Assembly: GCA_025351615.1 (NCBI GenBank)
Contig: JANXVP010000461.1
Coordinates: 1 to 27,233 of the forward strand
Direction of reading: 5' to 3'
Source of the DNA: Ramlibacter sp.
Lineage (GTDB): Bacteria > Pseudomonadota > Gammaproteobacteria > Burkholderiales > Burkholderiaceae_C
Length of the DNA stretch: 27,233 bases
Shown: positions 6,302 to 27,233 of the stretch, piece by piece
How the letters are laid out: every line of letters starts with the position of its first letter
Numbering within the stretch: the first letter of the stretch is position 1
Notes under the pieces: generated by a model
The model's database searches: none
What the model saw: only the letters and a program-made list of their open reading frames with translations
What the model was told of the DNA's origin: nothing
Position numbers and translations under genes: made by a program

Positions 6302-6361
6302 GGGCCTGGCTCCGGCCGGGTCTGCCGCGCGCTGCGCGCTCTGTGGGCAACACGGCATCGA

Positions 6362-6367
6362 TACAAT
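6362..6367 (+). promoter_or_regulatory. Candidate -10 box for rubredoxin-pil operon
   Basis: TACAAT sits 31 bases before the rubredoxin GTG, in the 97-bp divergent spacer with thiD. It is part of the same ATACAATCGT decamer seen before dusB (from 1128). No good -35 sequence is apparent. On the opposite strand TAGAAT (complement of 6374-6379) could serve thiD. Confidence 0.3.
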
Positions 6368-6398
6368 CGTTGCATTCTATTCGAAGGCCCTTTAAGCT

Positions 6399-6572: not shown

Positions 6573-6646
6573 AAAAAGGGACGAGCAGTTTCACATCTTC
6601 GGATGATGCCGCGCCCAACGTTTTACAGATTGAGGAGCAGCGTCAC

Positions 6647-7045: not shown

Positions 7046-7410
7046 TGGCGATAAAAAAAGTGCTCGTCGTGGATGATTCCAGGACAGAGCTGATGTTCAT
7101 GACGGACCTGCTGCAGAAGAACGGCTTCGCGGTGAAGACGGCCGAGAACGCCGAAGACGCGTTTCGCCGGCTGGCCGAGGAAAAGCCGGACCTGATCCTG
7201 ATGGACGTCGTGATGCCCGGCCAGAACGGTTTCCAGCTGACCCGCGCCATCACCCGCGACCCGCTCTATGCCGACGTGCCGATCATCATGTGCACCAGCA
7301 AGAACCAGGAAACCGACCGCGTCTGGGGCATGCGCCAGGGCGCCCGCGACTACATCACCAAGCCGGTGAATGCCGACGAGCTGATGGCCAAGATCAAGGC
7401 CCTGAGCTGA
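7045..7410 (+). CDS. pilH: PilH-type twitching-motility response regulator (single REC domain)
   Basis: 121 residues from ATG 7045, which overlaps the pilG stop. AAGGAG lies just upstream, so an earlier GTG (7042) is unnecessary. A CheY-like receiver with D10-D11, phospho-acceptor D54 in LILMDVVMPGQNGFQ, CTSKNQETDRVWGMRQGARDY and K106 in YITKPV. The KNQETDRVWGMRQGA stretch is a PilH signature. In Pseudomonas PilH counteracts PilG and is linked to pilus retraction or acts as a phosphate sink for ChpA. The gap to pilI is 23 bases. Confidence 0.93.
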   Translation: MAIKKVLVVDDSRTELMFMTDLLQKNGFAVKTAENAEDAFRRLAEEKPDLILMDVVMPGQNGFQLTRAITRDPLYADVPIIMCTSKNQETDRVWGMRQGARDYITKPVNADELMAKIKALS

Positions 7411-7433
7411 AGCGCCGAGCCTTGTTCTGACCC

Positions 7434-7964
7434 ATGGCCAACCGCGAAGCCCTTCGAGAACTCCAAAGCCGGCTCGCCACCCGCCTGCAGGCCGCCCGCA
7501 CCGAGGGTGTCTCCGCGTCCTGGCTGGCGGTGGAATCGGCCGGCTCCCGCTACCTGTTCCCGCTGGCCCAGTCGGGGGAAATTTTCCCCTTCTTCAGCGC
7601 CCAGTATGTGCCCTATACCCATCCTTGGTTCCTGGGGGTCGCCAACCTGCGGGGCGGGCTTTACGGCGTGGTCGATCTGGCGAGCTTTGTCGCCGGCCGC
7701 GCGCCGCCGATGCGTTCCGACGCCACCCGGGCCGAATCCCGGCTGGTGGCCCTCAACTCAGCGCTGGAAGTCAACTGTGCGCTGCTGATCGATCGCCTGG
7801 CGGGCCTGCGCAACGTCGACGCCTTCACCTCTTCAAGCGGGCCGGCCGAAGGCTCGCCCGGCTACTTCGGCAGCGGCTACACCGACACCAACGGTGCGTT
7901 CTGGCAGGAAATCAACCTGCAGGCGCTGTCGCAACAACCCCAGTTTCTCAGTATCAGCGCTTAA
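7434..7964 (+). CDS. pilI: PilI, CheW-like adaptor
   Basis: 176 residues with a single CheW domain covering most of the chain. Characteristic elements are YLFPLAQSGEIFPF (about 39-52), VPYTHPWFLGVANLRGGLYGVVDLASF (about 61-87) and a C-terminal TNGAFWQEINLQAL helix. PilI couples the PilJ receptor to the ChpA kinase at the cell pole. Together with position between pilH and pilJ this makes the call firm. The start ATG 7434 is the first in frame after the pilH stop; a strong Shine-Dalgarno is not evident. Confidence 0.9.
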   Translation: MANREALRELQSRLATRLQAARTEGVSASWLAVESAGSRYLFPLAQSGEIFPFFSAQYVPYTHPWFLGVANLRGGLYGVVDLASFVAGRAPPMRSDATRAESRLVALNSALEVNCALLIDRLAGLRNVDAFTSSSGPAEGSPGYFGSGYTDTNGAFWQEINLQALSQQPQFLSISA

Positions 7965-7985
7965 AGCACCCCGGAAGGCCGCACC

Positions 7986-10259: not shown

Positions 10260-10311
10260 GCGGCGCAGTGGCTTCTCTGCACGCCCGGCACTAGTTCCAT
10301 CCAGGGGCCCC

Positions 10312-13300: not shown

Positions 13301-16257
13301 TTCCCCTGTACAACGTGTACCTCAACGAAGCCGATGAGTGGTCCCGACGGCTCGAGACCGAGGTGTCGGAATGGGCGCTGGAGCTGAATCAGCCAGTGCC
13401 TGATTCGACGGTCGGCTTGGCGCATGCGCTGGCCGGCAGCTCGGCAACCGTCGGCTTCGACGCCCTCTCCGATGTCGCGCGGGCGCTTGAGAGCGCGCTC
13501 GGCCACACCCAGCTTCTTGCGTATGGCACGCCGCAGCACGGCCAGGCCTTCATCGCCGCGGCGGAGGAAATCCGCCGCCTGTTGCACCAGTTTGCCGCCG
13601 GCTTTCTCAAGGAGCCCGACGCTCGCGTGACCCGGGCGCTGCAGCAACTGCACGACATCGAGGCTCCCAAGCGCGCCGAGCAAGCCGAGGAAGAAGAAAT
13701 CGCCCGCAGCGGCTTTGGCAAGCTTGACTTTACCGCACCGCTTGCGTCAGTGCCGCCGGCTTTCGTGGCAAAGCCGGCGCCATCGGCTGGCACTGTGCCG
13801 CACGAGCCGATTGCGCCGGCCGCTGCAATGGTGATTGCGCCGGCTACGGCCGCGGTTGCACGCAACCTCGATGACGAGCATGACGCCATCGACGTGGCCG
13901 ACGTGATCGACCCCGACCTGTTCCCGATCTTCGAGGAAGAGGCAGGCGAGCTGCTGCCCCAGCTGGGTGGCGCCTTGCGCCAATGGGTGGCGCGTCCCGA
14001 CAACCGTGGCGCCCGCGACGAGGTCCTGCGCGCATTGCACACGCTCAAGGGCAGCGCCCGGCTCGCAGGCGCTCTGCGGCTGGGTGAAATGTCGCACCGG
14101 ATGGAATCGGAGATCGAGGAATTCGGACTGGAGGGCGTCCAGCCATCCAACCTCGAAGCGTTGCTGCAGCGGCTCGACGCAATGCAGGCCAACCTCGACC
14201 AGTTGCGCGCGAGCGGTGGAGGGCAGGCCGAGTCTGGGATGGCGCCGCTTGCCGACGCTGCGACGCAGCAGGCCCTGGTCCCGGACCAGACGCAGGCCAC
14301 GCCGGCTCCGGGCGCGACTCCCGCTGGCACGTCGTCAGCGCCTCGCACCGCGATCGCGCTTCCGGCCACCAGCACGCTGGCGCCGATTCGGCAGGCGTCC
14401 AACCAGGCGGTCCGGGTCCGGTCGCAATTGCTCGACCGGCTGGTCAACCAGGCCGGCGAGGTGATGATCACCCGCTCGCGGCTGGAGGCCGAACTCAAGC
14501 AGCTGCGCGCTTCGCTCACCGACCTGTCGGGCAACCTGGACCGGTTGCGGACCCAGCTGCGCGACATCGAACTGCAGGCCGAGTCGCAGATGCAATCGCG
14601 GCTGGCGCAGTCCAAGGACACGGCGGCCGGCTTCGACCCGCTCGAATTCGACCGCTTCACCCGGGTCCAGGAACTCACGCGGATGATGGCGGAGTCGGTG
14701 AACGACGTCGCGACGGTGCAGCGCAACCTGCAGCGCACGGTGGAAGCAACCGAAGACGACCTGATCGCGCAGGCGCGCCAGACCCGGGAGCTTCAGCGCG
14801 ACCTGCTGCGCACCCGCATGGTGGAGTTCGAGGGCATCTCGGACCGGCTGTACCGCGTGGTGCGCCAGGCGTCCAAGGAAACCGGCAAGCAGGTCAAACT
14901 GGACATCACCGGCGGCTCGATCGAAATGGACCGCGGCGTGCTCGATCGCATGACGCCGGCTTTTGAACACCTGTTGCGCAATTGCGTGGCCCATGGCGTC
15001 GAGACGCCGGAAGCGCGCGCGAAGGCCGGCAAGGAGCCGACCGGCACCATCGTGATCGGACTCAGCCACGAAGGCAACGACGTGTCGGTGCAGTTCGAGG
15101 ACGACGGCGCCGGACTCGACATCGCGCGCATCCGCGAGAAGGCGATGCAGCAGGGCATGCTCCAGCCGGGCCAGGAGCTGAGCGACCAGGACGCGGCCAA
15201 CCTGATTTTCATGCCCGGTTTTTCGACCGCCTCACAGGTCACAGAACTGGCTGGCCGCGGCATCGGCATGGACGTGGTGCGCTCCGAAGTCAACGCCTTG
15301 GGAGGCCGGATCGAGACCCGAACGCAAGCCGGCAAGGGGACCAGCTTCAAGCTGGTGCTGCCCCTCACCACCGCGGTGACCCAGGTGGTGATGATCCGCA
15401 GCGGGACGCTCTCCATCGGCGTCCCCGCGAACCTGGTCGAACTGGTGCGGCGCGCTCCGGCCAAGGAAGTGCAACAGGCCTACAACACCGGCACTTACGA
15501 GTTCGGAGGCGAAACATTGCCGTTCTTCTGGTCCGGCGCCCTGCTCCAGGCCTCCCAGCGCAGCGCCGAACCGCAAGGCAAGACCTTGCCGGTCGTGATC
15601 TTCCGCAGCGCCGCGCAGCGCATCGCGCTGCATGTGGACGAGGTGCTCGGCAACCAGGAAGTGGTCGTGAAGAACCTCGGACCGCAACTGGCCCGGCTCC
15701 CCGGCCTGGCCGGCATGACGGTGCTGGCTTCGGGCGCAGTGGTTCTGATCTACAACCCGGTTGCATTGACAACCGTGTACGGCGATGTCGCGCGGCGGCT
15801 CAGCGCCGACAACGCCCAGCCCGAGATGCTGGAACACGCTGGCCTGCGCCTGCCGGCTCTGGCGCCGGAGGTACCGCAGATTCCCCTGGTGATGGTGGTC
15901 GATGACTCCATTACCGTGCGGCGCGTGACGCAGCGGCTGCTCCAGCGTGAAGGTTACCGCGTCGTGCTGGCGGCCGATGGCCTGCAAGCGCTGGCGAAGC
16001 TGGCCGAGGAACGGCCGGCAGTGGTGCTGTCCGACATCGAGATGCCGCGCATGGATGGATTCGACCTGGCCCGCAACATCCGCGGCGACGCGCGGCTTGC
16101 CAAGCTGCCCATCATCATGATCACGTCGCGCATCGCCGAGAAGCACCGTGAGCACGCGCGTGAACTCGGCGTGGACCACTACCTGGGCAAGCCCTACTCC
16201 GAAGAAGAGCTGCTCAGCCTGGTCAAGCACTACTGCAGCACCGCCGTGCCGGCGTGA
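10312..16257 (+). CDS. chpA: ChpA/PilL-type hybrid chemosensory histidine kinase with multiple phosphotransfer modules
   Basis: 1981 residues from ATG 10312 (MQVNETDLDL); the open frame extends into pilJ but the family starts here. Phosphotransfer-like modules in order: an N-terminal FimL-like one with H67 (HQAVGALEMVG); a serine version at S497 (SQMRGVLSVLGL); a canonical Hpt at H736 (AFHTLKGSSRMVG); a variant at H1038 (HALAGSSATVGF, lysine lost); and a canonical Hpt at H1243 (ALHTLKGSARLAG). Ala/Pro-rich linkers separate them. A P1-to-kinase dimerisation helix region (about 1370-1500) follows, then the HATPase (N1557 in LLRNCVAHGVE, VQFEDDGAGLD, GRGIGMDVV), a CheW-like domain (about 1690-1830) and a REC domain with D1908 (VLSDIEMPRMDG). 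It is the kinase of the Pil-Chp system that phosphorylates PilG and PilH. Pseudomonas ChpA is longer (about 2470 aa, eight modules). Confidence 0.93.
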   Translation: MQVNETDLDLAANDLGPLAWVLDELRKSLDAASAALRRFVRDANLARGSDMASVDDGHLRIARQQLHQAVGALEMVGMGAPAHMLRGMEAAVQKFVERPELCSEAASAKIERAGFALTEFLEGLLLGKPVTAVALFPQYRDVQELAGADRIHPADLWALDWRWTEPATPPVTQTLVYDPAVRSRMDHGVLSVVKSGDGKAARDLVTLSLGLAASQTARQPRIFWKIAGGYFEALAQGLLPIDLYVKRAASRILMQYASLAKGESTVSDRLAQDLVFFCSQAVPARATDAPALTAVRLAWSLARFKPVDYQVSHFGRFDPLLLAQARKRIGTAKETWSALSGGDANKIKPVGEQFHLVTDSLIKLHPPSTPLAEALKAAIDAVVRSARAPGAELAMEVATAILYLEAAFEDLDPTDAQLATRTARLAERLDGVRQGGQAQPLETWMEELYRRVSDRQTMGSVVGELRATLGELEKLLDNFFRNPQDKGPLRDAPNHLSQMRGVLSVLGLDQASQAVLRMREAVEEMLIDEVDEEKARAAGTFDKLGNNLGALGFLIDMLNYQPALAKKLFVYDDHTGELKPLMGRAAHSLGEAAAGVSLGDDMLSQEVASVVGDADAAAGSPGLSAKLDTLAGHAALAGHTGMAHAAREASAAVSAQDSTATSAALDELAAVVQPGPAMAPAPATAPATEDFDEEDIRDIFLEEAREVVQNALTALETLAANPSDLSELTTLRRAFHTLKGSSRMVGLTEFGEAGWSMEQVLNAWLAEQKPASEDLRTLAADAMRGFALWVEDIAAGTDSGWKASQFRTAADAMRTEQRLVPLEFSTARPAAEQPAAPLESVESFELPQAFAPVDFPDLPQEVPVALEVAAAPQSPGDAVLPDFSFDELEPAQAQQPAAEEIPADLAVDFGFDFGDPPAPAPAPVTIEGIDLAGLAELSDTARRDMAPTFLDLPQNDFVLSGLMGELAPLPDAAPFAESESALAEEQVKVIGSLRIGIPLYNVYLNEADEWSRRLETEVSEWALELNQPVPDSTVGLAHALAGSSATVGFDALSDVARALESALGHTQLLAYGTPQHGQAFIAAAEEIRRLLHQFAAGFLKEPDARVTRALQQLHDIEAPKRAEQAEEEEIARSGFGKLDFTAPLASVPPAFVAKPAPSAGTVPHEPIAPAAAMVIAPATAAVARNLDDEHDAIDVADVIDPDLFPIFEEEAGELLPQLGGALRQWVARPDNRGARDEVLRALHTLKGSARLAGALRLGEMSHRMESEIEEFGLEGVQPSNLEALLQRLDAMQANLDQLRASGGGQAESGMAPLADAATQQALVPDQTQATPAPGATPAGTSSAPRTAIALPATSTLAPIRQASNQAVRVRSQLLDRLVNQAGEVMITRSRLEAELKQLRASLTDLSGNLDRLRTQLRDIELQAESQMQSRLAQSKDTAAGFDPLEFDRFTRVQELTRMMAESVNDVATVQRNLQRTVEATEDDLIAQARQTRELQRDLLRTRMVEFEGISDRLYRVVRQASKETGKQVKLDITGGSIEMDRGVLDRMTPAFEHLLRNCVAHGVETPEARAKAGKEPTGTIVIGLSHEGNDVSVQFEDDGAGLDIARIREKAMQQGMLQPGQELSDQDAANLIFMPGFSTASQVTELAGRGIGMDVVRSEVNALGGRIETRTQAGKGTSFKLVLPLTTAVTQVVMIRSGTLSIGVPANLVELVRRAPAKEVQQAYNTGTYEFGGETLPFFWSGALLQASQRSAEPQGKTLPVVIFRSAAQRIALHVDEVLGNQEVVVKNLGPQLARLPGLAGMTVLASGAVVLIYNPVALTTVYGDVARRLSADNAQPEMLEHAGLRLPALAPEVPQIPLVMVVDDSITVRRVTQRLLQREGYRVVLAADGLQALAKLAEERPAVVLSDIEMPRMDGFDLARNIRGDARLAKLPIIMITSRIAEKHREHARELGVDHYLGKPYSEEELLSLVKHYCSTAVPA

Positions 16258-16272
16258 ACAGCTGCTTCACGC
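16252..16272. terminator. Hairpin spanning the chpA and phrB stop codons
   Basis: GCGTGAA (16252-16258) pairs perfectly with TTCACGC (16266-16272) around a seven-base loop. The chpA TGA (16255-16257) and the phrB stop (TCA, 16267-16269) lie in opposite arms. On the + strand the stem is followed by GGTATTTTTCC, a short T-run, so intrinsic termination of the pil operon is plausible. Confidence 0.55.
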
Positions 16273-17754
16273 GGTATTTTTCCTGACCACTGAATAGCGC
16301 TCCAGCGTGCGTTGCCGCGCGTCGTCGTGATTCACCACGGGTGCGGGGTAGGTTTCGCCCAGGATGATGCCGGCGGCAAGCAGCTCCACCGGGCTGGCGG
16401 TCCAGGGGGCATGCAGCGCATCGGCGGGCAGGCCGGCCAGTTGCGGCAGGTACTTCAGGATAAAACGTCCTTGCGGGTCGAACTTGCGGCTCTGGGTCAC
16501 AGGATTAAAAATCCGGAACCAGGGTTGCGCGTCGCAGCCGGTCGAACTCGCCCACTGCCAGCCGCCGTTGTTGGACGCCAGCTCGTAATCGTTGAGGTGC
16601 TCGGCAAAGTACCGTTCGCCCCTGCGCCAGTCGATGCCCAGGTCCTTGGTCAGGAAGCTGGCCACGATCATCCGCAGCCGGTTGTGCATGTAGCCGCTCT
16701 GGTTGATCTGCGCCATGGCGGCGTCGACCAGCGGGTAGCCGGTGCGGCCTTCGCACCACGCCGCGAACAGCGTGTCCGCGTGCTTGCCATGCTCCCATTT
16801 CACGGCGTCGTAATCGCGCTTGAAGCTGTGGCTGTGGCCCTGCTCGTCGCTCACGTGGGGAAAGTTGGCCAGCACCTGGAAATAAAAGTCGCGCCAGATC
16901 AGCTCGCCCAGCCAGACCGAGGCTCCGGCGCTTGCTTGCTGCGACAGGCGGTGCGCCGTCGCCGCCAGCTCCCGGATCGACACTGTGCCGAATCGCAGGT
17001 GAACGCCGAGGTAGCTCGGACCCTTCACAGCGGGAAAGTCGCGCGCTTCGCCGTAGCGATCGATCCGCTCCAGGAACTCCGCCAGCAATTCGCGTCCGCC
17101 GCTGGCGCCAGTGGGCAGTTTCAGCTCGTGCAGGTTGGTCGGCTCGAACCCCAGCGCCTGCAGCGACGGAACCGCAAGCCGCATCGCCACCGGCCGCTGT
17201 GCCAATCCGGCTGCGTACTTCTCCACCGGGTAGCCCTTCAGATAGAACGCGTCGACCTTGGCCAGCCATGCTTTTTTGTAAGGCGTGAACACCGCATAGG
17301 GCTTGCCGCTCTGGGTGAGCAGCTCGGTGCGCTCGAAAACCGTCTGGTCCTTGAACGTGTGAAAGCCGATGCCGGCGTCGGCGAGTGCTCCACGAACCGC
17401 GGCATCGCGGGCAGCGGCTTGCGGCTCGTCATCGTGGTTGGCAAATACGGACTGCACCTGCAGCGCAAGGGCCACCCGCCCGATCTCGTGCACCGCAGCG
17501 CCATGGCAGGTGATCAGGCCGCCGGCGTCGCCCCCTGCCAATGCGCGCAACAGCGCGTCCAGCTCCACCAGCGACTCGCGGATGAACTCGACCCGGCGGT
17601 CCTGCCGCGGCAGGCTGTCCAGGATGGTGGAGTCGAACACGAACACGCAGTGCACCTGGCGGCACGATTTGAGCGCGTGGAACAGCGCGGCGTTGTCGCT
17701 CACCCGAAGGTCGCGCCGAAACCACATGAGGCCAGCGGGATAAGTTTTTTCCAT
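16267..17754 (-). CDS. phrB: Deoxyribodipyrimidine photolyase (cryptochrome/photolyase family)
   Basis: 495 residues from ATG 17754 (MEKTYPAGLMWFRRDLRVSDN); the upstream extension would enter yqgE and is not homologous. It repairs UV-induced cyclobutane pyrimidine dimers using blue light and FADH-. The N-terminal antenna-binding Rossmann domain begins with LMWFRRDLRVSDNAAL. The C-terminal FAD domain contains KGPSYLGVHLRFGTVS, LGELIWRDFYFQVL, EGRTGYPLVDAAMAQ, MHNRLRMIVASFLTKDLGIDWR and the highly conserved WASSTGCDAQPWFRIFNP stretch. It is a class I-type (bacterial) CPD photolyase by these motifs. It is convergent with chpA and divergent from yqgE with only 22 bases between the start codons. 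Confidence 0.95.
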   Translation of the reverse strand: MEKTYPAGLMWFRRDLRVSDNAALFHALKSCRQVHCVFVFDSTILDSLPRQDRRVEFIRESLVELDALLRALAGGDAGGLITCHGAAVHEIGRVALALQVQSVFANHDDEPQAAARDAAVRGALADAGIGFHTFKDQTVFERTELLTQSGKPYAVFTPYKKAWLAKVDAFYLKGYPVEKYAAGLAQRPVAMRLAVPSLQALGFEPTNLHELKLPTGASGGRELLAEFLERIDRYGEARDFPAVKGPSYLGVHLRFGTVSIRELAATAHRLSQQASAGASVWLGELIWRDFYFQVLANFPHVSDEQGHSHSFKRDYDAVKWEHGKHADTLFAAWCEGRTGYPLVDAAMAQINQSGYMHNRLRMIVASFLTKDLGIDWRRGERYFAEHLNDYELASNNGGWQWASSTGCDAQPWFRIFNPVTQSRKFDPQGRFILKYLPQLAGLPADALHAPWTASPVELLAAGIILGETYPAPVVNHDDARQRTLERYSVVRKNTA

Positions 17755-17764
17755 TGAGGTCAAG

Positions 17765-17770
17765 TAAAAT
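17765..17770 (+). promoter_or_regulatory. Possible -10 box for the yqgE operon
   Basis: TAAAAT ends six bases before the yqgE ATG (17777). If used, transcription would begin close to the start codon and yield a leaderless or nearly leaderless message. No clear -35 is seen at the proper distance, and no Shine-Dalgarno fits in this space. Low-confidence reading. Confidence 0.2.
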
Positions 17771-17776
17771 CCGATC

Positions 17777-18376
17777 ATGCCTGCCGACGAGACGACCATC
17801 AACCTGACGCACCATTTCCTGATCGCGATGCCGGGTCTCGAAGACGAAGCCTTCGCCAAAAGCGTCGTTTACCTGTGCGAGCACAGCGCCCGGGGCGCTC
17901 TTGGACTGGTGATCAACAAGCCCAGCGACATCAACCTGCAGGGCCTGTTCGACAAGGTCGAACTGCCGCTGCGGCGGGACGACCTGATGGGTATTCCGGT
18001 GTTTCACGGGGGACCAGTGCATACCGAGCGTGGTTTCGTGCTGCACGAGGCGCTCTTCGCGGGCGATGCCGCGCCGTCGGAGCCGGTGTATGCGGCCACG
18101 ATGACCATTCCCGGCGGGCTCGAGATGACCACCTCCAAGGACGTGCTGGAGGCGATGGCCACCGGCTCCGGTCCGCGCAAGGTGCTGGTGTCGCTGGGCT
18201 ACTCTGCCTGGGGCGAGGGCCAGCTCGAATCCGAACTGGCCGAGAACAGTTGGCTCACGGTCAGTGCCGACCCAGTCGTGATCTTCGACACCCCGGTCGA
18301 ACAGCGCTATGCGAAGGCGCTTTCCCTGCTGGGCCTTGAGGCCTGGATGCTTTCGCCGGTTGCGGGTCACGCATGA
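17777..18376 (+). CDS. yqgE: YqgE/AlgH family protein (UPF0301)
   Basis: 199 residues. The family signatures are LTHHFLIAMPGLEDEAFAKSV (about 10-30), VYLCEHSARGALGLVINKP (about 31-49), the central GIPVFHGGPVHTERGFVLH (about 75-93) and SLGYSAWGEGQLESELAENSWL (about 138-159). YqgE/AlgH proteins are cytosolic, of known fold but uncertain biochemical role; the name algH derives from an alginate-related phenotype in Pseudomonas. It heads a run yqgE-ruvX-pyrR-pyrB-pyrC' in which every junction overlaps (ATGA at 18373 with ruvX), so the genes are very likely translated from one message. Confidence 0.93.
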   Translation: MPADETTINLTHHFLIAMPGLEDEAFAKSVVYLCEHSARGALGLVINKPSDINLQGLFDKVELPLRRDDLMGIPVFHGGPVHTERGFVLHEALFAGDAAPSEPVYAATMTIPGGLEMTTSKDVLEAMATGSGPRKVLVSLGYSAWGEGQLESELAENSWLTVSADPVVIFDTPVEQRYAKALSLLGLEAWMLSPVAGHA

Positions 18377-18789
18377 GCCTGACGGCCATGCCTGAAATCC
18401 CCGACCACCTCCAATCTTTCCTGGCTTTTGATTTTGGCGCCAAGCGCACCGGCGTTGCCGTCGGCAATCGCCTGCTGCGGGCGGCCACCCCACAAGCCAC
18501 CATCCGTGCCGACGGCGATGCCCGGCTGTCGCAGGTCGAAGCGCGGGTGCGTGAGTGGCAGCCGGATGCGCTGGTCGTCGGCGTGCCCTTTCATCCTGAC
18601 GGCGCCAGCCACGACAATACCGCGCGGGCGAAAAAATTCGCGCGGCAGTTGCGCGGCCGCACCCGGTTGCCGGTTTACGAAGTGGACGAGCGTTACAGCA
18701 CCACGGAAGCGCTGGCCGGTGGAGCCGTCGATCCGGACGCAGGTGCGGCGTGTGTCATCCTGGAACAATTCCTCAGGAGCCTGCCGTGA
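18373..18789 (+). CDS. ruvX: RuvX/YqgF RNase H-fold nuclease (putative Holliday junction resolvase)
   Basis: 138 residues, RNase H-like fold. The first catalytic Asp is D20 in [17 protein letters not shown] (17-33). [11 protein letters not shown] and [14 protein letters not shown] follow, the latter carrying the conserved D-E-R-x-S/T-T signature, then [13 protein letters not shown], the last acidic site. The family (YqgF) is implicated in pre-16S rRNA 5'-end maturation in E. coli and in Holliday-junction resolution. An alternative start at M6 is possible. It overlaps yqgE (ATGA) and pyrR (GTGA at 18786-18789). Confidence 0.92.
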
Positions 18790-19316
18790 CCACCCCGAGC
18801 CGAGCCGCTCCGGCCGCGGGGGCCTTGTTGCTGGACGCCGAGGCGCTGTACCGGGAGCTGCAGCGTGGAGTGGAGCAGCTGCGCACGCCACAGACGCGCC
18901 TGGTCGGCATCACGTCGGGCGGCGCATGGCTGGCCGGGCGTCTGCACATCGACCTGGGCCTGTCGGGCACGGCGGGCGTGATTTCATCGGTCATGCACAG
19001 GGACGACTTCGCCAAGCGCGGTCTCTCGGGCGCGGGCCAGCAGACCCAGCTCGATTTCGACGTCAACGATTCGCACCTCATCCTGCTGGACGACGTGCTG
19101 TACACCGGCCGCACCATCCGCGCGGTGCTCAACGAGCTGTTCGACTACGGCCGTCCCGCCAGCGTGCAACTGGCGGTATTGGTGGATCGTGGCGGCCGCG
19201 AGCTGCCGGTGCAAGCCGGCTTCGCGGCGGCCCGGGTGACTTTGCCGGCGTCGCAGTCGCTCGAACTGGCGCGCGACAGCGCGGGCAGGTTCAGCTTCAA
19301 GCTGGAGGAAGCGTGA
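18786..19316 (+). CDS. pyrR: PyrR-family phosphoribosyltransferase (pyr operon regulator / uracil phosphoribosyltransferase)
   Basis: 176 residues from GTG 18786, which overlaps the ruvX TGA; AGGAG lies nine bases upstream of it. A type I phosphoribosyltransferase with the PRPP loop [18 protein letters not shown] (about 99-116), followed by [30 protein letters not shown], a stretch close to Bacillus PyrR. In Firmicutes PyrR binds pyr mRNA and controls attenuation, and has weak UPRTase activity. In this Gram-negative setting no attenuator is visible before pyrB, where the genes overlap directly, so an RNA-binding role here is unproven. The gene order pyrR-pyrB-pyrC' matches that known from Pseudomonas. 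Confidence 0.9.
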
Positions 19317-20284
19317 TGCTCTACAAACGCAATCCGCAGCTGAATAAGAACGGGGAGCTGATCCACCTGCTCTCGGTCGAGGGCCTGCCGCGCGACATTG
19401 TCACCCACATCCTGGACACCGCCTCGAGCTTTGCCAGCGTGAGCGATCGCGAGGTCAAGAAGGTCCCGCTGCTGCGGGGCAAGAGCGTGTTCAACCTGTT
19501 TTTCGAGAACTCCACCCGCACGCGGACCACCTTCGAAATCGCGGCCACGCGACTGTCGGCCGACGTGATCAACCTGGACATCGCGCGTTCGTCGGCGTCC
19601 AAGGGCGAGTCGCTGCTGGATACCATCGCCAACCTGTCGGCGATGGCGGCCGACCTGTTCGTCGTGCGCCACGGCGAGTCCGGTGCGCCTTACCTGATTG
19701 CCCGGCATGTGGCGCCGCATGTCCATGTGATCAATGCCGGCGACGGTCGCCACGCCCATCCGACCCAGGGCCTGCTGGACATGTACACCATCCGTCACTA
19801 CAAGAAAGACTTCTCGGGCCTGACGGTGGCGATCGTCGGCGACGTGCTGCACTCGCGCGTGGCCCGCTCCGACATCCACGCGCTGACGACGCTTGGTTGC
19901 GCCGAAGTGCGCGTTGTCGGTCCCAAGACCCTGGTCCCCGACGATATGGCGCAGATGGGCGTGCGGGTGTGCCATACGCTGCAAGAGGGCATCAAGGACT
20001 GCGACGTGGTGATCATGCTCAGGCTGCAGAATGAACGCATGAGCGGCGCGTTGCTGCCTTCCGCGCAGGAATTCTTCAAGAACTTCGGGCTCACCGAAGA
20101 GAAGCTGCAGCTGGCCAAACGCGACGCCATCGTGATGCATCCCGGCCCGATCAACCGGGGCGTGGAGATCGACTCCGCGGTGGTGGACGGCAAGCAGAGC
20201 GTCATCCTTCCGCAAGTGACCTTCGGCATCGCGGTGCGCATGGCGGTGATGAGCATCGTCGCCGGCAACGAGGCGTCAGCATGA
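19316..20284 (+). CDS. pyrB: Aspartate carbamoyltransferase catalytic subunit
   Basis: 322 residues; ATG 19316 overlaps the pyrR stop (TGATG). It forms N-carbamoyl-aspartate from carbamoyl phosphate and aspartate, the committed pyrimidine step. Carbamoyl-phosphate loop [12 protein letters not shown] (63-74), then [36 protein letters not shown] and the aspartate-side [12 protein letters not shown] near the C-terminus. No pyrI regulatory gene is adjacent. Instead pyrB overlaps a pseudo-dihydroorotase (pyrC', ATGA at 20281), consistent with a class A dodecameric ATCase of the Pseudomonas type. Confidence 0.97.
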
Positions 20285-21585
20285 AGATCCTGATTCGAAA
20301 CGGCCGGGTGATCGACCCGGCTTCGGGCTTCGACGAGATCTGCGACGTCGCGATCGCGGCGGGGCGGATCATCGGCATCAAGGCGATTGCGCCCGGCTTT
20401 TCAGCGAGCCGCGTGATCGACGCCAGCGGCTGCATCGTCGCGCCGGGGTTGATCGATCTCGCGGCGCGGCTGCGCGAGCCGGGCCACGAGCACGAGGGCA
20501 TGCTCGAAAGCGAAATGGCGGCGGCGGTGGCCGGAGGCATTACGGCCCTGGTCTGCCCACCGGACACCGAGCCGGTCCTCGACGAGCCCGGGCTTGTTGA
20601 AATGCTCAAGATGCGGGCGGAGAAGCTGCACCGGGCGCGGGTGTTTCCGCTTGGTGCGCTCACCCGCAATCTCCAGGGTGAAGTGCTCACCGAGATGGCC
20701 GAACTGACCGAGGCTGGCTGCGTCGGGTTCAGCCAGGCCGAAGTGCCGCTGGCGAACACCCTGGTGCTGCAACGGGCGTTGCTTTACGCGGCGACCTTCG
20801 GCTACACCGTCTGGTTGCGGCCCCAGGAACTGCATCTGGGCCAGGGTGTGGCGGCCAGCGGCGCGCTGGCCACGCGGCTCGGACTGGCGGGGGTGCCGGT
20901 CGCGGCCGAGACGATCGCGCTGCACACCATTTTCGAACTGATGAAAGCGACCGGCGCTTGCGTTCACCTGTGCCGCATCAGCAGCGCAGCGGGGATCGAC
21001 CTGGTGCGGCAGGCGCGTAACGCCGGGCTGCCCGTGACCTGCGACGTCAGCATCAACTCGCTGCTGCTGACCGATACGGACATCGGTTTCTTCGACAGCC
21101 GCATGCGCCTGAACCCGCCCTTGCGCCAGCAACGGGATCGCGATGCCCTGCAGCGGGGGTTGGCCGACGGGACCGTCGACGCGCTGGTCTCCGACCACAC
21201 CCCGGTCGACGAAAACGCCAAGACCTTGCCCTTCGCCGAGGCGGAACCGGGGGCGACGGGCCTCGAGCTGTTGTTGTCGATTGCATTGAAGTGGGGGCGG
21301 GACGGCGACGTCGACCTGCGGCGCTCGCTCGCCATCGTCACCAGCGAGCCGGCGCGCGTGCTGGGCAGTGCGCTGGGCACGCTGCAAGCCAGCGTGGGCC
21401 GGCTGGTCGAAGGCGGTGTCGCCGACGTGTGCGTATTCGACCCCGATGCGACGTGGACCATCACCCCAGCCGCGTTGCGCAGCCAGGGAAAGCACACGCC
21501 GTTCTCGGGTTACGAAGTTCCTGGCCGTGTTCGCTGCACTATTGCCGCCGGGCTGGTCGCCTACGAAGGCCAGGCCCCGCGCTGA
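20281..21585 (+). CDS. pyrC': Dihydroorotase-like protein PyrC' (probably non-catalytic ATCase partner)
   Basis: 434 residues of amidohydrolase fold: [13 protein letters not shown] at the N-terminus, then [15 protein letters not shown] (54-68), [42 protein letters not shown] and a C-terminal [17 protein letters not shown]. Active dihydroorotases have D-x-H-x-H-x-R-E-P-G at the first metal site; here positions 61 and 63 are Ala and Arg instead of His. The usual N-T after M-P is also changed (CPPDTEP), and FSQAEV replaces the usual loop. It therefore most likely cannot bind the zinc pair. Pseudomonas PyrC' has the same kind of loss and serves as a structural subunit of ATCase. An active pyrC should lie elsewhere in the genome. 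Confidence 0.88.
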
Positions 21586-21589
21586 CCGC

Positions 21590-22327
21590 ATGAACTCGCT
21601 GCGCGGCTGCTGGCGCCTTGGCCGTGCCCTTGGCGTCATTCTGGCTGGCTGGGCCACCGTTGTCTTGCTGTTCCCGCGCATGGGGGCTGCGCTGCAGGAA
21701 GTTCGGGTCCAGGCCTGGGCGCGGCAAATGCTCACGGTTCTGGGGATCGCCCTGGAACTGCGCGGCGACCCTCCTGCGCCGGGTCCCTTGCTGCTTGTCG
21801 CCAACCACATCTCATGGCTGGATATCCTGGTGATGCATGCGGCGCGGCATTGCCGCTTCGTGTCCAAGGCGGATGTCAAGCGCTGGCCGTTGATCGGCAC
21901 ACTGGCCACCGGCGGCGGCACGATCTACATCGAACGCGAGTCACGGCGCGATGCCATGCGGGTGGTTCACCGGATGGCCGCGCGCCTTGCAGCGGGCGAG
22001 ATCCTGGCAGTCTTCCCGGAGGGCACGACCAGCGACGGCGTGTCGCTGCTTCCATTTCACGGCAACCTGGTCCAGGCCGCCATCTCGGCCGGGGCGCCGG
22101 TGCAGCCGGTGGCCTTGCGGTTCATCGATGCAGCGACCGGTGAAACGAGCTTGACGCCTTGCTATATCGGGGACGACAGCCTGGTGGCGTCGCTCTGGCG
22201 CACTGTGAGCGGGCCGCCCGTCACCGCCATCGTGACCTATGGCGAACCGCAGCATGCGCAGGGCCGCGACCGGCGGCGCTGGGCACAGGACCTGCGCGCG
22301 AGCGTCGAACGGTTACGTCGGGACTGA
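21590..22327 (+). CDS. plsC: 1-acyl-sn-glycerol-3-phosphate acyltransferase (PlsC-like)
   Basis: 245 residues from ATG 21590, four bases after the pyrC' stop; the longer upstream frame overlaps pyrC' and is rejected. An N-terminal hydrophobic helix (about 11-30) anchors it to the inner membrane. The acyltransferase motif is NHISWLD (72-78; H73, D78, the HX4D catalytic pair). GGGTIYIERESRRDAM (motif II region) and VFPEGTTSDG (141-150, motif III) follow, then AGAPVQPVALRF (motif IV). It transfers an acyl chain to lysophosphatidic acid, or a related lysophospholipid, for phospholipid synthesis. It probably rides on the pyr operon transcript. The exact acceptor cannot be read from the sequence. 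Confidence 0.9.
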   Translation: MNSLRGCWRLGRALGVILAGWATVVLLFPRMGAALQEVRVQAWARQMLTVLGIALELRGDPPAPGPLLLVANHISWLDILVMHAARHCRFVSKADVKRWPLIGTLATGGGTIYIERESRRDAMRVVHRMAARLAAGEILAVFPEGTTSDGVSLLPFHGNLVQAAISAGAPVQPVALRFIDAATGETSLTPCYIGDDSLVASLWRTVSGPPVTAIVTYGEPQHAQGRDRRRWAQDLRASVERLRRD

Positions 22328-22385
22328 TGGATGCCGCAACCACGCCGGGAATTGCGCGCGCAACGCGACTCATCCGGCTTCAGGG

Positions 22386-22613
22386 TTATTCCGCAGGGTC
22401 AGGACGGCCTGAGGCCGCCTTGCGGAAGACGACTTCGCCGGTCGGCACAAACACCACCCGGATTTCCTGGCCGGAGGGTTTGGTGAAACTCTTGGCGGCA
22501 AGCGCCACTGCAAGTGCCCTGTCCCTGACCAGATAGTGCCCGGCTCCCGAAGCGGGCAGGAAGCGGCTTCCGAGCGGGTGGCTGCTTTCGATGCGGTAGT
22601 CGGCGGACGGCAT
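22386..22613 (-). CDS. Small hypothetical protein, 75 aa
   Basis: Read from ATG 22613 to TAA 22386-22388. The start is supported by AGAGGTGA directly upstream on the minus strand; an upstream ATG at 22685 would add residues with no such signal. The chain has a short beta-like pattern (GHYLVRDRALAVALAAKSF, then EIRVVFVPTGEVVFRK), suggesting a compact soluble domain. There are no cysteines, signal peptide or membrane segment, and I do not recognise the family. It lies convergent to plsC (58 bases between stops) and divergent from the KaiC-type operon, across the repeat-rich spacer. Confidence 0.65.
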   Translation of the reverse strand: MPSADYRIESSHPLGSRFLPASGAGHYLVRDRALAVALAAKSFTKPSGQEIRVVFVPTGEVVFRKAASGRPDPAE

Positions 22614-22687
22614 GGTCACCTCTGATTTGGTTGGATCCGGGCGTTGGCGTCTGTCATCCCGGCATTCAAATAGTAGGCCTCTCACAA

Positions 22688-22747
22688 GTCATGGCAATGA
22701 CCGTTACGGCATTTCCCGGTCACAACTGTAACGAGTTGAAATGCCGT
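22688..22747. repeat. Cluster of interleaved inverted repeats in the divergent spacer
   Basis: Four perfect dyads lie within 60 bases. GTCAT (22688-22692) pairs with ATGAC (22697-22701). CGTTAC (22702-22707) pairs with GTAACG (22728-22733). ACGGCATTTC (22706-22715) pairs with GAAATGCCGT (22738-22747). CAACT (22723-22727) pairs with AGTTG (22734-22738). They overlap, so they form alternatives rather than one stem. The position between the divergent 75-aa gene and the KaiC operon suggests an operator or RNA switch, but no protein is assignable. The rest of the 22614-22863 spacer shows no convincing promoter. Confidence 0.5.
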
Positions 22748-22863
22748 TGGGGTGACGTTAGTGAAGATGCCACCGCAATGTAAATCCCGTCTGTGCGGCG
22801 TCGCACATAGGAACAAAATCGTACTTTAGAAATATCGGGGTTCGCAGATTGCGAAGGGGTAGC

Positions 22864-23322
22864 ATGAAACTGGATCGGACATCCGACCAGCCTTTCATGG
22901 AAACGCAGGAAAGTCGCAAGCTTGCCGTCACCTTGCAGTATCTCGCTGCCCAAGGTGCCGACAGCGCGCAAATCACAGAGGCCATTGTTTCAACCTGGGT
23001 CGTGGTTGAAGCCGCGCTTCCTCCGGTCATCGGCAAGAAGGGCATCGCGGCGCTCTACACACGCAGCCTGTATCTGATCCGCGCTCGTTATCCCTGGCTG
23101 AGCGCAATCTTCGGTTCGGATGCGTCCATGGATTTGCCCCGGTTGCGAGCCGCGCTGGTCCAGCAGGAGAGCAGCAAGGCTGCAGCTGCAGGCGGCGCTC
23201 ATCTGCAGACGCTGTACGAGCTGCTGGACAGCCTGATCGGCCCGTCGCTGACCGGACAACTGCTTGGATCCGCGTGGGATAACTCGTTTGTCGCCTTCGC
23301 CGGAAAGGACATTTCGCAATGA
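22864..23322 (+). CDS. Unrecognised 152-aa protein, first gene of the KaiC-like operon
   Basis: Starts at ATG 22864 (MKLDRTSDQPFME) behind AAGGGG; an ATG at 22849 would add only five residues without a better signal. It is predicted by eye to be nearly all helical and soluble, with amphipathic helices such as ESRKLAVTLQYLAAQG, ITEAIVSTWVVVEAAL, LYTRSLYLIRARYPWL and LQTLYELLDSLIG, and an Ala-rich hinge (KAAAAGGA). There is no DNA-binding motif, membrane segment or metal site. I do not recognise the family; it does not look like KaiA or KaiB. Its stop overlaps the KaiC-like start (ATGA at 23319), so it is co-translated with the ATPase and is a candidate partner or regulator of it. Confidence 0.8.
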   Translation: MKLDRTSDQPFMETQESRKLAVTLQYLAAQGADSAQITEAIVSTWVVVEAALPPVIGKKGIAALYTRSLYLIRARYPWLSAIFGSDASMDLPRLRAALVQQESSKAAAAGGAHLQTLYELLDSLIGPSLTGQLLGSAWDNSFVAFAGKDISQ

Positions 23323-24800
23323 ACGACAAAGTCACCATCAACCGTTTGTCCACCGGGGTTCCCGGGCTCGACGAAATACTTGGCGGTGGATTGCCGGAGT
23401 TCTCGTTCAATCTCATCGCGGGGCCGCCGGGCTGTGGCAAGACCACCCTGGCGCACCAGATGATGTTCGCGCTGGCAACGCCCGAGCGGCCTGCGATTTA
23501 CTTCACGGTGCTGGGAGAACCGCCTTTGAAGATGCTGCGGTACCAGCAGCAGTTCGAGTTTTTCGACAGCGCCCAGGTCAACCGCTCGGTCCGCTTCATC
23601 AACCTGTCGGACGACGCGCTGGCGGGCAACCTCGACAACGTGCTCAACTGCATTGTCACCGAGGTGCAAACGCACAACCCGGCGCTGGTCTTCGTGGACT
23701 CGTTCCGTTCCGTGGTGCTCGCCAGCGAAACCGAGGGTGGCTCGAACAGCAACCTGCAGCATTTCGTGCAGCAGCTCGGGGTGCTGATGACGAGCTGGCA
23801 GGCCACCACTTTCCTGCTCGGCGAGTACTTTACCGAGAACGACGCCAACCCGGTGTTCACGGTGGCCGATGGACTGATCTGGCTGCGCCAGAGCGTGCAG
23901 GGCAACTCCATGGTGCGCAAGATGGAAATCATGAAAATGCGCGGCCAGGCGACGCTGCCGGGGCTGCACACCTTTCGCATCGGTGCTGCCGGCCTGATGG
24001 TGTTCGCGCCGGCACGGGTCGCGGTTTCGGCGCACGTCAATGAAATTCGGGTCCCGCCAGGCGCCCGTTTGCAGATGGGCGTGCCGCATCTGGACGAGAT
24101 GCTCGGCGGGGGCTTGCCACGCGGGCATTCGTTGCTGGTTGCAGGTCCTTCGGGGTCGGGCAAAAGCATTTTGGCCACTGCCTTCCTCGCCGAGGGTGCG
24201 CGCTGTGGCGAGACCGGCGTGATTGCTTTCTTCGAGCAGCGTCCGCATCGCGTGCGCGACGGTGTCATCCGCGGCCTGATCGAAAGCGGTCGCGTCGCCG
24301 AAGTGGACACCCAAGCGGCCGATCTGTCGATCGATGAGATCGTATTTGAGCTTTTAAACGAGATCCGCCGGCTCAAGGCGACCCGCGTCGTCATCGATTC
24401 CCTGTCGGGTTTCGAGCTCGTGCTGGCACCGACCTTTCGCGAGGATTTCAAGGAATCGCTGTTGCGCATGGTCGCCGCGCTGGAGCGCACAGGCGTGACG
24501 GTGTTGATGACGTCCGAACTGGAGGACCGCTACATTGATCTGCGCTTCAGCCCTTACGGCACGGCTTTCCTGACCGATGCGATCATTGTTCAGCGTTACA
24601 TCGAGCTCGGCAGCCGGCCGCGGCGCGTGATGGCAGTTGTGAAGATGCGGGGCAGCAAACATTCCAACGAACTGCGCGAATACACCATCGACGACAGCGG
24701 CCTTCAAATCGGTGAGATGCTGGCCGATCAGGAGGGACTGCTCGGCGGGCGACCGACGAGAAAAATTGGTGCGCAGGCTCCGCCGGATCATTCGTCGTGA
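23319..24800 (+). CDS. KaiC-like double RecA-domain ATPase
   Basis: 493 residues with two RecA/KaiC domains. Domain 1: GVPGLDEILGGGLPEFS (13-29), Walker A GPPGCGKT (35-42), a single glutamate E67 at the catalytic-Glu position (VLGEPP) and Walker B LVFVD (123-127). Domain 2: GVPHLDEMLGGGLPRG, Walker A GPSGSGKS (276-283), E306-Q307 in FFEQRP where KaiC has Glu-Glu, Walker B VVID (357-360), then KMRGSKHSNELREYTI (442-457). Length is close to cyanobacterial KaiC (519). From memory of KaiC, its phosphorylated Ser431/Thr432 correspond here to A416/F417, so clock-type autophosphorylation is doubtful. It probably forms a hexameric ATPase or kinase used in signalling. It overlaps the upstream 152-aa gene (ATGA) and the downstream kinase gene (GTGA). 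Confidence 0.9.
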   Translation: MNDKVTINRLSTGVPGLDEILGGGLPEFSFNLIAGPPGCGKTTLAHQMMFALATPERPAIYFTVLGEPPLKMLRYQQQFEFFDSAQVNRSVRFINLSDDALAGNLDNVLNCIVTEVQTHNPALVFVDSFRSVVLASETEGGSNSNLQHFVQQLGVLMTSWQATTFLLGEYFTENDANPVFTVADGLIWLRQSVQGNSMVRKMEIMKMRGQATLPGLHTFRIGAAGLMVFAPARVAVSAHVNEIRVPPGARLQMGVPHLDEMLGGGLPRGHSLLVAGPSGSGKSILATAFLAEGARCGETGVIAFFEQRPHRVRDGVIRGLIESGRVAEVDTQAADLSIDEIVFELLNEIRRLKATRVVIDSLSGFELVLAPTFREDFKESLLRMVAALERTGVTVLMTSELEDRYIDLRFSPYGTAFLTDAIIVQRYIELGSRPRRVMAVVKMRGSKHSNELREYTIDDSGLQIGEMLADQEGLLGGRPTRKIGAQAPPDHSS

Positions 24801-26956
24801 GAACACAGCCTGAACCCAATGGAAGCGGGATAGCCGACGCCGCTGGCGACCTCGCGCGGCTTCAGGAACAGGTCAAGCAGGCGCGCGACGAACTGGCCGA
24901 CCTGAACCGGCAACTGGCCCTGGCCCGCGTCCGGCTGGGCGACAACAAGGCGCTCCGGTTGCTGGAGGCGAACGAGCAGCTGGTGCTGGCGACGCTGGCG
25001 GCGCAGCGGGCCGCAGAAGCCAGCGAGCAGGCAGTGCACGAATTGATGGAAGCGGCGGAGCTGGATCCGCTCACGGGCCTGCCGACTGCGGCCCTGCTGC
25101 GCGCCCGACTGGCGCTTGCCATCGGCACTGCCGGCGTGAGTGGTGGCCGGGTGGCGCTGTTGCTGCTGAATCTGGCCGACTTCAAACTGATCAATGACAC
25201 GCTCGGGCACGCAATTGGCGACCAGGTGCTCAAGCTGGCTGGAGACAGCCTCGTGGCATCGGCCGGTGCCACGGCGACCGTCAGTCGACACCGCGGCAAC
25301 GAATTCCTGGTGTTGCTGCCGGATCTTGCGGACGTGTCGCAAGCAGTGGTCCAGGCCGCGTCCATCGTCGCGGCGCTCGGCGCCCCGACGATGCTGAACA
25401 ATCATGTATTGCGTTTAGCCGCCAACGTGGGCATCAGCGTCTTCCCGGAAGACAGCGCTGACCCCGACAGCATGATCGACCGGGCCATGGCAGCCATGTA
25501 CCGGGCCAAATGGAGCGGCGTGAGCAGTTACGCTTTCCAGGGCGAGACCGGTACCGCGGAACGAAGCCTGGAGCTGAGAACCCTCGAGGCGTTGCGGCGG
25601 CCGCTCGTCGACCGTCGATCGGCGACGGTGGAGTTCGAGCGCCATCATGCGCTGTTGCAGGAGGCGAACACGCAACTGGTGCTGGCTGCCATCAGCGCCC
25701 ATGAATTGCAGGCCGCAGCGGAGCAGGCGCAGCAACGGCAGACCACCTTTCTTGCCGTCCTGGCCCATGAACTGCGCAACCCGCTGACGCCGATCAGCAA
25801 CGCGGCGACCCTCCTGGGCCACATCCCATCCGACGGCCCGCTGCTGCCCAAGGTCCAGAAGATCATCGAACGCCAGGTCAGAAACATGTCACGCCTGGTC
25901 GAAGACCTGCTGGACGTTTCGCGGGCGACTGCCGGCAAGCTGAGTTTGCAGATGGAGGCGGTCGATCTCACAACCCTCATCGACAACGTGGTCGAGGCCT
26001 GCCGGCCGACGATGGATACCCGCCTGCAGCGGTTCGATATCCACCTGCCGCTGCCGGACCTCGAAGTGCAAGGCGACCCGGTGCGGCTGACGCAGATATT
26101 CACCAACCTGCTGGACAACGCTTCGAAGTACACGCCGCAGCGTGGTGAGATCCGTTTCACGGCAGTGTCCACTGACAATTCGGTGGTGTTGACCGTCGCG
26201 GACAACGGAATCGGGATTACCGAGGAAGCCTTGTCCACCATCTTCGAGCCCTTTGTGCAGGAGCAGCATGCAACCCTCTTCAACGGTGTGGGTCTGGGCA
26301 TCGGGCTCACCGTCGTGCGTGAACTGGTCGAAGGGCACGGTGGTACCGGAGAACACAACTCGCTCATTCTTAGCGCGACCGATTTGCAGGCCGCTCGCTA
26401 CTACCTCGATTCCATGATGGCCTGCTTAGAGGAAGAGGCTGCAATCACTGTGGCGATGGTTCTACCGAAGGACATGGCTCGCCTATATGAGGCCACCGAT
26501 CCGCTTTTCGGGACCGACGTAGCGCTCAAGTTTCCTGGCATTCAATACGACAGTTCGGAGGCGAGCAAGTGTCTTGCGCTGGGGCGCAGCACTGCCGCTT
26601 CATTTCATGCGATTCGGTGCCTTGAGACGGGGATAACCGCTATTTCGCGCTGTCTTGGCATTCCTGATCCAACTAAAGGCGCAGACAGGAATTGGGGCGC
26701 GGTGCTAGCAAAGGTGAAGGGCGAAATTGATCGTAGGTGGGTCGGGGGCGCATCCCGGTTCAGCGGTGATGGCGCTACCTTTGAAGGGTTGTATGGGGTG
26801 CTTGCGGCGCTCCAAAACCCGTACAGAAACGCGACGATGCACTTTGATCAAATCTACACCGAAGACGATGCAAAGCACATTGTTGCAATGGTGAAGGGCG
26901 TTATGCAGAAGATCGCTTCCCGGATGGACGAGAACGGGATACCGCTGGTGCCTTAG
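24797..26956 (+). CDS. GGDEF-like/histidine kinase fused in frame to a HEPN-like segment (chimera)
   Basis: 719 residues from GTG 24797, overlapping the KaiC-like TGA. Residues 20-90 form a coiled coil. A GGDEF-like domain (about 88-250) follows: DPLTGL, and FKLINDTLGHAIGD. Its signature is RGNEF (166-170), and the first metal Asp is N125, so cyclase activity is unlikely. A second coiled coil (280-315) leads to HisKA with phospho-acceptor H324 (AHELRNPL). HATPase has the N-box N441 (TNLLDNASKYT), D469 (VADNGIGI) and GLGIGLTVVRELVEGHGG. Normal homology stops at T517, before the final HATPase strand and any receiver domain. From about 26348 the frame runs into an unrelated HEPN-like stretch of about 200 residues with AT-richer codons. 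The kinase part belongs to the KaiC operon; the C-terminus is foreign. Confidence 0.85.
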   Translation: MRTQPEPNGSGIADAAGDLARLQEQVKQARDELADLNRQLALARVRLGDNKALRLLEANEQLVLATLAAQRAAEASEQAVHELMEAAELDPLTGLPTAALLRARLALAIGTAGVSGGRVALLLLNLADFKLINDTLGHAIGDQVLKLAGDSLVASAGATATVSRHRGNEFLVLLPDLADVSQAVVQAASIVAALGAPTMLNNHVLRLAANVGISVFPEDSADPDSMIDRAMAAMYRAKWSGVSSYAFQGETGTAERSLELRTLEALRRPLVDRRSATVEFERHHALLQEANTQLVLAAISAHELQAAAEQAQQRQTTFLAVLAHELRNPLTPISNAATLLGHIPSDGPLLPKVQKIIERQVRNMSRLVEDLLDVSRATAGKLSLQMEAVDLTTLIDNVVEACRPTMDTRLQRFDIHLPLPDLEVQGDPVRLTQIFTNLLDNASKYTPQRGEIRFTAVSTDNSVVLTVADNGIGITEEALSTIFEPFVQEQHATLFNGVGLGIGLTVVRELVEGHGGTGEHNSLILSATDLQAARYYLDSMMACLEEEAAITVAMVLPKDMARLYEATDPLFGTDVALKFPGIQYDSSEASKCLALGRSTAASFHAIRCLETGITAISRCLGIPDPTKGADRNWGAVLAKVKGEIDRRWVGGASRFSGDGATFEGLYGVLAALQNPYRNATMHFDQIYTEDDAKHIVAMVKGVMQKIASRMDENGIPLVP
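26348..26956 (+). pseudogene. HEPN-like protein segment, probably 5'-truncated, fused to the kinase
   Basis: About 202 residues in the same frame as the kinase. It shows ATDLQAARYYLDSMM, CLALGRSTAASFHAIRCLETG, ISRCLGIPDPTKGADRNWG and the motif R677-N-A-T-M-H682 in NPYRNATMHF, which fits the R-x4-6-H signature of HEPN domains (often RNases in abortive infection and toxin systems). I recall similar stand-alone hypothetical proteins from alphaproteobacterial mobile regions, with longer N-termini. An internal start at ATG 26414 is possible. No own ribosome site is evident, so expression probably depends on the kinase message. Function is inferred from one motif only. Confidence 0.55.
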
Positions 26957-27110
26957 GCGGAGCGATCACCTTCATAGCGCGCTCGAATGCCTTCCCTGAC
27001 TCGTCCACTTTAAGCGCCTTCGCAGTCTCAACGAACCGCTGATGCTGCGTCTTGCCCTTCAAGTCGGGCGGCTTATTTCTTGCCTTTCCGGCCTTTCCAG
27101 TGGGGTTCAT
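26901..27110 (-). CDS. Small basic hypothetical protein, 69 aa
   Basis: Starts at ATG 27110 behind AAAGGA (minus strand) and overlaps the 3' end of the HEPN-like segment by 56 bases in antisense. It is rich in Lys/Arg at both ends, with a helical centre (HQRFVETAKALKVDES, GKAFERAMKVIAPPK). The F-E/D-x-A-x(n)-A-F-E/D-x-A pattern resembles small uncharacterised proteins I have seen beside transposases. It begins 11 bases after the stop of the transposase-like frame, so it probably shares that transcript. No function can be given. Confidence 0.6.
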   Translation of the reverse strand: MNPTGKAGKARNKPPDLKGKTQHQRFVETAKALKVDESGKAFERAMKVIAPPKAPAVSRSRPSGKRSSA

Positions 27111-27121
27111 CCCATTTCCTT

Positions 27122-27232
27122 TCAGCTAACAGTCGTTTGATAGGTGAGCCGCTTGCCCTTCACACCGACCAGCAGGTTAAGCGCGCGCTCGAAATCGTTC
27201 ACGCCATTCGCAACGCGATTGGAGAAACGGAA
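27122..27232 (-). CDS. C-terminal end of a transposase, IS1595/ISXO2-like (5' part outside window)
   Basis: An open frame of 36 residues enters from beyond the window and stops at 27122-27124. It reads FRFSNRVANGVND, then FERALNLLVGVKGKRL and TYQTTVS. The F-R-x-N-R...G-V-x-D...G-K-R-L-T-Y pattern is what I recall for the C-terminus of ISXO2-like DDE transposases of the IS1595 family. None of the catalytic residues lie in the visible part, so the family call rests on this short stretch. The whole piece of sequence from 27111 to the window end holds nothing else. Confidence 0.6.
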   Translation of the reverse strand, partial: FRFSNRVANGVNDFERALNLLVGVKGKRLTYQTTVS

Positions 27233-27233
27233 A

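Follow-up and report, generated by a model that had tools for sequence, protein, structure and literature searches.

Does a reading frame that begins as the histidine kinase of a kaiC operon and ends, without a stop, as an unrelated HEPN-like protein encode a new signalling protein, or does it record the breakage of an old one? The question is raised by the window, the whole 27,233-nucleotide stretch analysed here (positions 1..27,233), which is the complete contig C321 of a draft genome (583 contigs, 91.1% complete). The preliminary description of this DNA proposed either a chimeric sensor kinase with a HEPN effector or a recent transposon insertion that inactivated the output of the KaiC operon. 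The features that bear on the question are listed below; L022 and L067 are loci from other genomes, and P0123 is a relative of the kinase.

22849..23322, + strand: small gene, 157 aa (listed from TTG), 5′ of kaiC, with a 4-base overlap
23319..24800, + strand: kaiC-like ATPase gene, 493 aa (Pfam KaiC, PF06745, in two stretches, E 8e-64), sharing 4 bases with the start of the kinase gene
24797..26344, + strand: truncated histidine kinase, residues 1–516, with GGDEF, HisKA and incomplete HATPase_c (from Pfam and identity to P0123)
26345..26365, + strand: join zone, between the last kinase codon (26342–26344) and the start of convincing HEPN alignment (26366)
26345..26956, + strand: HEPN-like gene, N-terminally truncated (about 90 codons gone), 203 codons and a stop, RNATMH present
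26901..27110, − strand: 69-aa ORF, antisense to the HEPN 3′ end over 56 bp, with related ORFs in L022 and L067
27122..27232, − strand: C-terminal 36 codons and stop of an IS1595-type transposase interrupted at the contig end (63.6% identity with the L022 transposase over 33 aa)

The first two genes (22849–24800) and the kinase form a three-gene operon linked by successive 4-base overlaps, and an ORF resembling the small gene, as judged by eye, also lies 5′ of kaiC in two further loci (L025 and L029). A histidine kinase gene immediately 3′ of a kaiC-like gene is likewise found in Ramlibacter tataouinensis (Rta_04330/Rta_04340), where the two are reported to be co-transcribed and a partnership, or simple timing pathway, has been proposed (PMC3164672). 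Unlike that pair, and with no orthology to Rta_04340 assumed, the window kinase has no end of its own and continues into the HEPN-like tail.

The ORF (24797–26956, + strand, GTG start, 719 aa) is open throughout, including across the join, so that the kinase does run in frame into an unrelated segment, as first described. Identity to P0123 ends at G516 (...VEGHGG, codon 26342–26344) and alignment to the HEPN family becomes convincing from residue 524 (codon 26366), which places the break at approximately 26345–26365, a zone compatible with the originally proposed 26345. G+C content at third codon positions is 0.798 in the kinase and 0.795 in kaiC, against 0.626 in the tail, in agreement with the earlier view of the tail as foreign and AT-richer. 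Both partners are cut at the join, the kinase at its 3′ side and the HEPN gene at its 5′ side, and, by protein comparison, they share at most a few bases there. The in-frame state of the join is, by simple reasoning, a 1-in-3 event when taken alone.

Pfam domains of the ORF comprise GGDEF (residues 87–241), HisKA (315–380, profile positions 2–66 of 66) and HATPase_c (426–518), the last of which is matched only over profile positions 1–91 of 111 and so falls short of the complete domain of a functional histidine kinase. P0123, an intact protein of 569 aa and the closest relative among those listed (97% identity over 517 kinase residues), reads SVTATSRGKGLGSELTVTLPL after GHGG, then extends into a further tail, and so supplies the ATPase strands absent from the window kinase. 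The last ATPase strand is therefore missing, as had been noticed, and the intact kinase exists in a relative. An ATPase domain without its last strands would be expected to be inactive and the kinase dead; the KaiC partner kinase would then be lost, leaving the kaiC operon without kinase output.

The same-genus kinase loci compared (L007–L017) continue normally to a stop in 11/11 cases. Matches to the kinase were found in 58/59 genomes of the genus, most of them paralogues, covering the HisKA–HATPase part only. Relatives at E ≤ 1e-60 numbered 1705, and the longest among the 120 listed did not exceed 585 aa, with lengths up to about 905 aa, and thus a 719-aa protein, eligible. Besides P0123, one protein from Ramlibacter sp. 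(P0169, 545 aa) and the kinase of genome G019 (G019:C457) were each 63% identical to the window kinase, and at the DNA level the closest relative in the genus (60 genomes) was only that of G019, at 71%. A P0123-type kinase tail was sought in the window's own assembly and not found; the search gave 11 matches at E ≤ 1, read as paralogues, the best of them with 52% and 55% identity. The gene 3′ of the kinase in G019 (L024) was matched at contig C200 of the window's own genome, and more of the same stretch at C583 and C353. C200 was considered as the site of the missing kinase end and rejected, since the gene there sits behind a different hybrid kinase; gene order is therefore uninformative on this point.

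The tail (203 aa) has zero Pfam family matches up to E 1; a search with it recovered 287 proteins at E ≤ 0.001 (best 3.6e-91), which is more than chance would give, as is the 97% match between the kinase part and P0123. The family has a median length of 280 aa, and 9 of the 120 listed members are shorter than 230 aa. The window copy begins at approximately residue 96 of family member P0001, with about 90 N-terminal residues absent and, among them, three of the four helices of the N-terminal bundle; it retains 18/18 invariant residues. Within the tail the first in-frame ATG is at 26414, and there is a TTG at 26384. The R-N-x3-H motif pointed out previously is present as RNATMH, which fits the Rx4-6H motif of the HEPN superfamily, where R is followed by a polar residue; all 120 listed relatives contain R[NSDH]xxxH, the first match having the form RNxxxH in 115 and RNATMH in 99. 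A structure model of the tail fragment folds as a helical HEPN domain (mean pLDDT 85.8), in keeping with the HEPN-like character first ascribed to it, and its eight best PDB matches include four titled HEPN (2hsb, 3o10, 1wol and 4nqf) as well as RnlA, whose family is counted as HEPN in the abstract of PMC3710099. Foldseek alone gave no match at E ≤ 0.001, and searching the PDB by sequence returned nothing useful. For the fold of the whole chimera, a mixed alignment (A4) was discarded because it had placed HEPN proteins on the kinase.

The tail thus resembles the HEPN superfamily, as outlined in the same source (PMC3710099), in its Rx4H motif with N after R, and differs from it in that the tail and its close relatives fall below every Pfam, NCBIfam and PADLOC family cut-off. 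For the Pfam HEPN family PF05168, for example, the relatives P0002, P0118 and P0122 score 12.6, 12.7 and 17.7 bits against a cut-off of 22, and only 1/57 members of the A2 alignment match it at E ≤ 0.01. PADLOC (5 proteins) and NCBIfam gave no match for the HEPN proteins or for the 69-aa ORF.

What follows the tail points to its origin. The suspected mobile-element neighbourhood is real: behind the tail lie the 69-aa ORF and the end of an IS1595-type transposase, of which 36 C-terminal residues are present, 35 of them without a Pfam match. The same three genes, in the same order, make up a 2081-bp element (5674–7754) in a betaproteobacterial MAG contig (L022). Read by eye, the ends of this element are inverted and near-identical (GGCGATATTATACTT) and are flanked by an 8-bp duplication (TTTGGAAA). 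The L022 transposase scores above the cut-offs of PF12762 and NF033547, and the HEPN gene of the element is complete, starting 36 bases inside the transposon end. Window and L022 share 52% identity in the HEPN protein (181 aa), 45% in the small ORF (60 aa) and 64% in the transposase end (33 aa).

The three genes recur in a genome of the same genus (L067, from G043), there with a transposase without a start and a HEPN gene without its 5′ part, the encoded HEPN protein being 43% identical to that of the window. This HEPN gene appears to be cut at a place similar to that in the window, by the apparent end of another insertion sequence (about 4690–4807), which we take to be of the IS21 type; at 2752–3470, the transposase piece sits behind a gene that we presume to resemble an AbiEi-type antitoxin. 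The small ORF and the HEPN gene overlap antisense at their 3′ ends in all three loci (window 56 bp, L022 62 bp, L067 53 bp), giving a recurrent module of IS1595-type transposase, small ORF (ending in ...RPSGKRS..) and convergent HEPN gene (window 26345–27232, L022 5674–7754, L067 3463–4761). Because the tail, the 69-aa ORF and the transposase end repeat this gene order, the tail is seen to be both foreign and mobile.

The L022 element is like known IS1595-type insertion sequences with passenger genes in holding an IS1595 transposase together with a gene not concerned with transposition. Insertion sequences that carry passengers have been termed ‘transporter ISs’, a HEPN-like passenger not being mentioned for them in the accessible part of the source (PMC3129680). 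Unlike such elements, the window holds a remnant, with one end lost, the passenger cut and the other end past the contig. No description of the module was found in the literature searched, much of it accessible in part and the IS1595 family paper lying outside its coverage; IS1595 and HEPN were mentioned together only in unrelated places. The module may represent a simple insertion sequence with a cargo for addiction or defence.

At E ≤ 0.001 the HEPN gene was detected in 3/61 relative genomes, and at E ≤ 1e-20 in 2/399 genomes of the order, 4/398 of the phylum and 2/369 of the class (own genome counted each time; the genome sets partly overlap, and G043 lies outside the 61 relatives). The tail is absent elsewhere in its own genome. 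The IS1595 domain occurs in 13/59 genomes of the genus, own included, and no inverted ends were recognised in six same-genus IS1595 loci (L055–L058, L060 and L062). An IS1595-domain gene at contig C311 of the window's own genome was considered as the continuation of the element and rejected, being a weak relative (33.2 bits) and a different transposase. No IS1595-type transposase end was found near other HEPN relatives (L019/L030, L020/L032, L021/L023, L047–L049 and L051–L053) in the stretches examined, indicating that the gene also lives outside the IS1595 context, and in the divergent locus L054 an IS1595-type transposase end lies approximately 1 kb behind the HEPN relative. Distant HEPN relatives in two places (L020/L032, G080:C1; L050/L054, G1020:C57) have one in-frame stop each (TGA and TAG, respectively) and are perhaps decaying copies. 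A phage origin was considered and rejected: the phage collection gave no match, and one viral contig (L023) has, over 8567 bases, the same gene list as the Rudaea locus L021. Five plasmid records showed matches (23–32% identity), and in the three plasmid stretches inspected no IS1595 gene is annotated (the gene table is incomplete), one of them having an IS3-type and an unnamed transposase.

On this evidence, we consider the join to have arisen by recombination between the histidine kinase gene of the kaiC operon and an IS1595-type remnant with a HEPN-like passenger, as a real and recent break that is in frame by chance (probability roughly 0.6). That the break is recent follows from the retention of all 18 invariant HEPN residues and of an open frame. 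The transposon insertion put forward in the preliminary description is upheld as regards the mobile element, but not as a plain insertion, since that would leave a transposon end at the join, where instead the passenger gene is interrupted and has lost about 90 codons, together with any L022-type end. The L022-type end was sought at the join and matched at best 11/23 bases, which is also the most frequent score among 500 randomly chosen places. The join therefore lies inside the passenger gene rather than at a transposon end, and a simple insertion boundary at 26345 was rejected. With no L022-like end at the join beyond chance, and the other end past the contig, the window holds a remnant and not an intact IS1595-type element.

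As a route to the recombinant junction, an IS1595-type element would have inserted in or behind the kinase, as a separate step that we assume. A deletion reaching from within the kinase into the passenger gene, or another illegitimate recombination, would then have eliminated the 3′ end of the kinase together with the end of the transposon and some 90 codons of the passenger, the frame being preserved at odds of 1 in 3. The outcome would be loss of the KaiC partner kinase, any HEPN activity being a by-product of the kaiC operon, and the cell might produce some HEPN domain fused to a dead kinase. Against this reading, both L022 and L067 appear only distantly similar to the window (HEPN 52% and 43%, respectively). 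The missing kinase end and the remainder of the transposon were sought in the window's own assembly and not found, so that no second breakpoint is seen. The join may, moreover, be an artefact.

The less probable, though still considerable, alternative is an assembly or library chimera of kinase DNA with a mobile-element fragment, perhaps from another community member, in which case the real kinase would be intact. The genome is fragmented into 583 contigs, and the join lies 889 bases from a contig end that itself falls within the transposase gene; each of the joined genes is interrupted partway, P0123 shows that a closely related kinase is intact, and the tail differs in composition and occurs nowhere else in the genome. 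In a finished contig, moreover, library or assembly chimerism would look identical to a recombinant. However, a short-read assembly mis-join normally requires a longer shared stretch than the few bases, at most, that the parents share by protein comparison, and a related remnant, L067, exists in the same genus.

A selected, expressed fusion, in which the partner kinase of KaiC acts as sensor scaffold for a HEPN RNase effector, is very unlikely. The frame is open, the whole HEPN domain is retained with its motif and is predicted to fold, and the 4-base kaiC/kinase overlap would couple the product to kaiC. However, the proposed chimeric sensor kinase has no counterpart: the tail region was present in only 2 of 1437 candidate proteins scored (395–1258 aa), neither of them a kinase, and as noted no listed kinase relative exceeds 585 aa, so that the 719-aa architecture does not recur in several species and no kinase–HEPN fusion family emerges. 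The two are natural fusions that place the HEPN region behind a response-receiver domain (P0121, 429 aa) and behind a TetR-type domain below the Pfam cut-off (P0122, 498 aa); nothing else supports a signalling use of the HEPN domain. The incomplete ATPase domain, the loss of three of the four N-terminal bundle helices, and the transposase and small ORF still directly behind the HEPN gene also argue against selection. If the join were nevertheless real and expressed, a KaiC timing operon would have had its output kinase equipped by a mobile element with a HEPN RNase domain, creating a KaiC-coupled RNase in one step; in a milder form, an undescribed IS1595-borne HEPN gene with its small overlapping ORF would act as an addiction or defence module, its HEPN repeatedly captured by host regulators, with P0121, P0122 and the window as three cases. 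Either form is a long shot.

Simple insertion of a variant IS1595-type element, with its own end at 26345 and a naturally short passenger, can hardly be right: the element type fits and the nine listed members below 230 aa suggest that short versions may exist, but several of these come from contigs of approximately 1 kb and may be incomplete, similarity to P0001 comes as close as about 20 bases to the join, which gives the gene the look of one that was cut there and did not begin there, the join bears no resemblance to the L022 end, and the first in-frame ATG comes only at 26414 (TTG at 26384).

The join is thus best regarded as mobile-element debris breaking a KaiC-partner kinase, or else as a draft-genome artefact that would invite mis-annotation as a novel signalling protein. 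What can be reused is the combination of an IS1595-type transposase, an antisense-overlapping small ORF and a HEPN-like gene, which co-occur in the window, L022 and L067, the HEPN-like gene being named by none of the libraries searched. The small ORF and the HEPN-like gene might be a toxin-type pair carried on a simple insertion sequence, an idea open to direct test.
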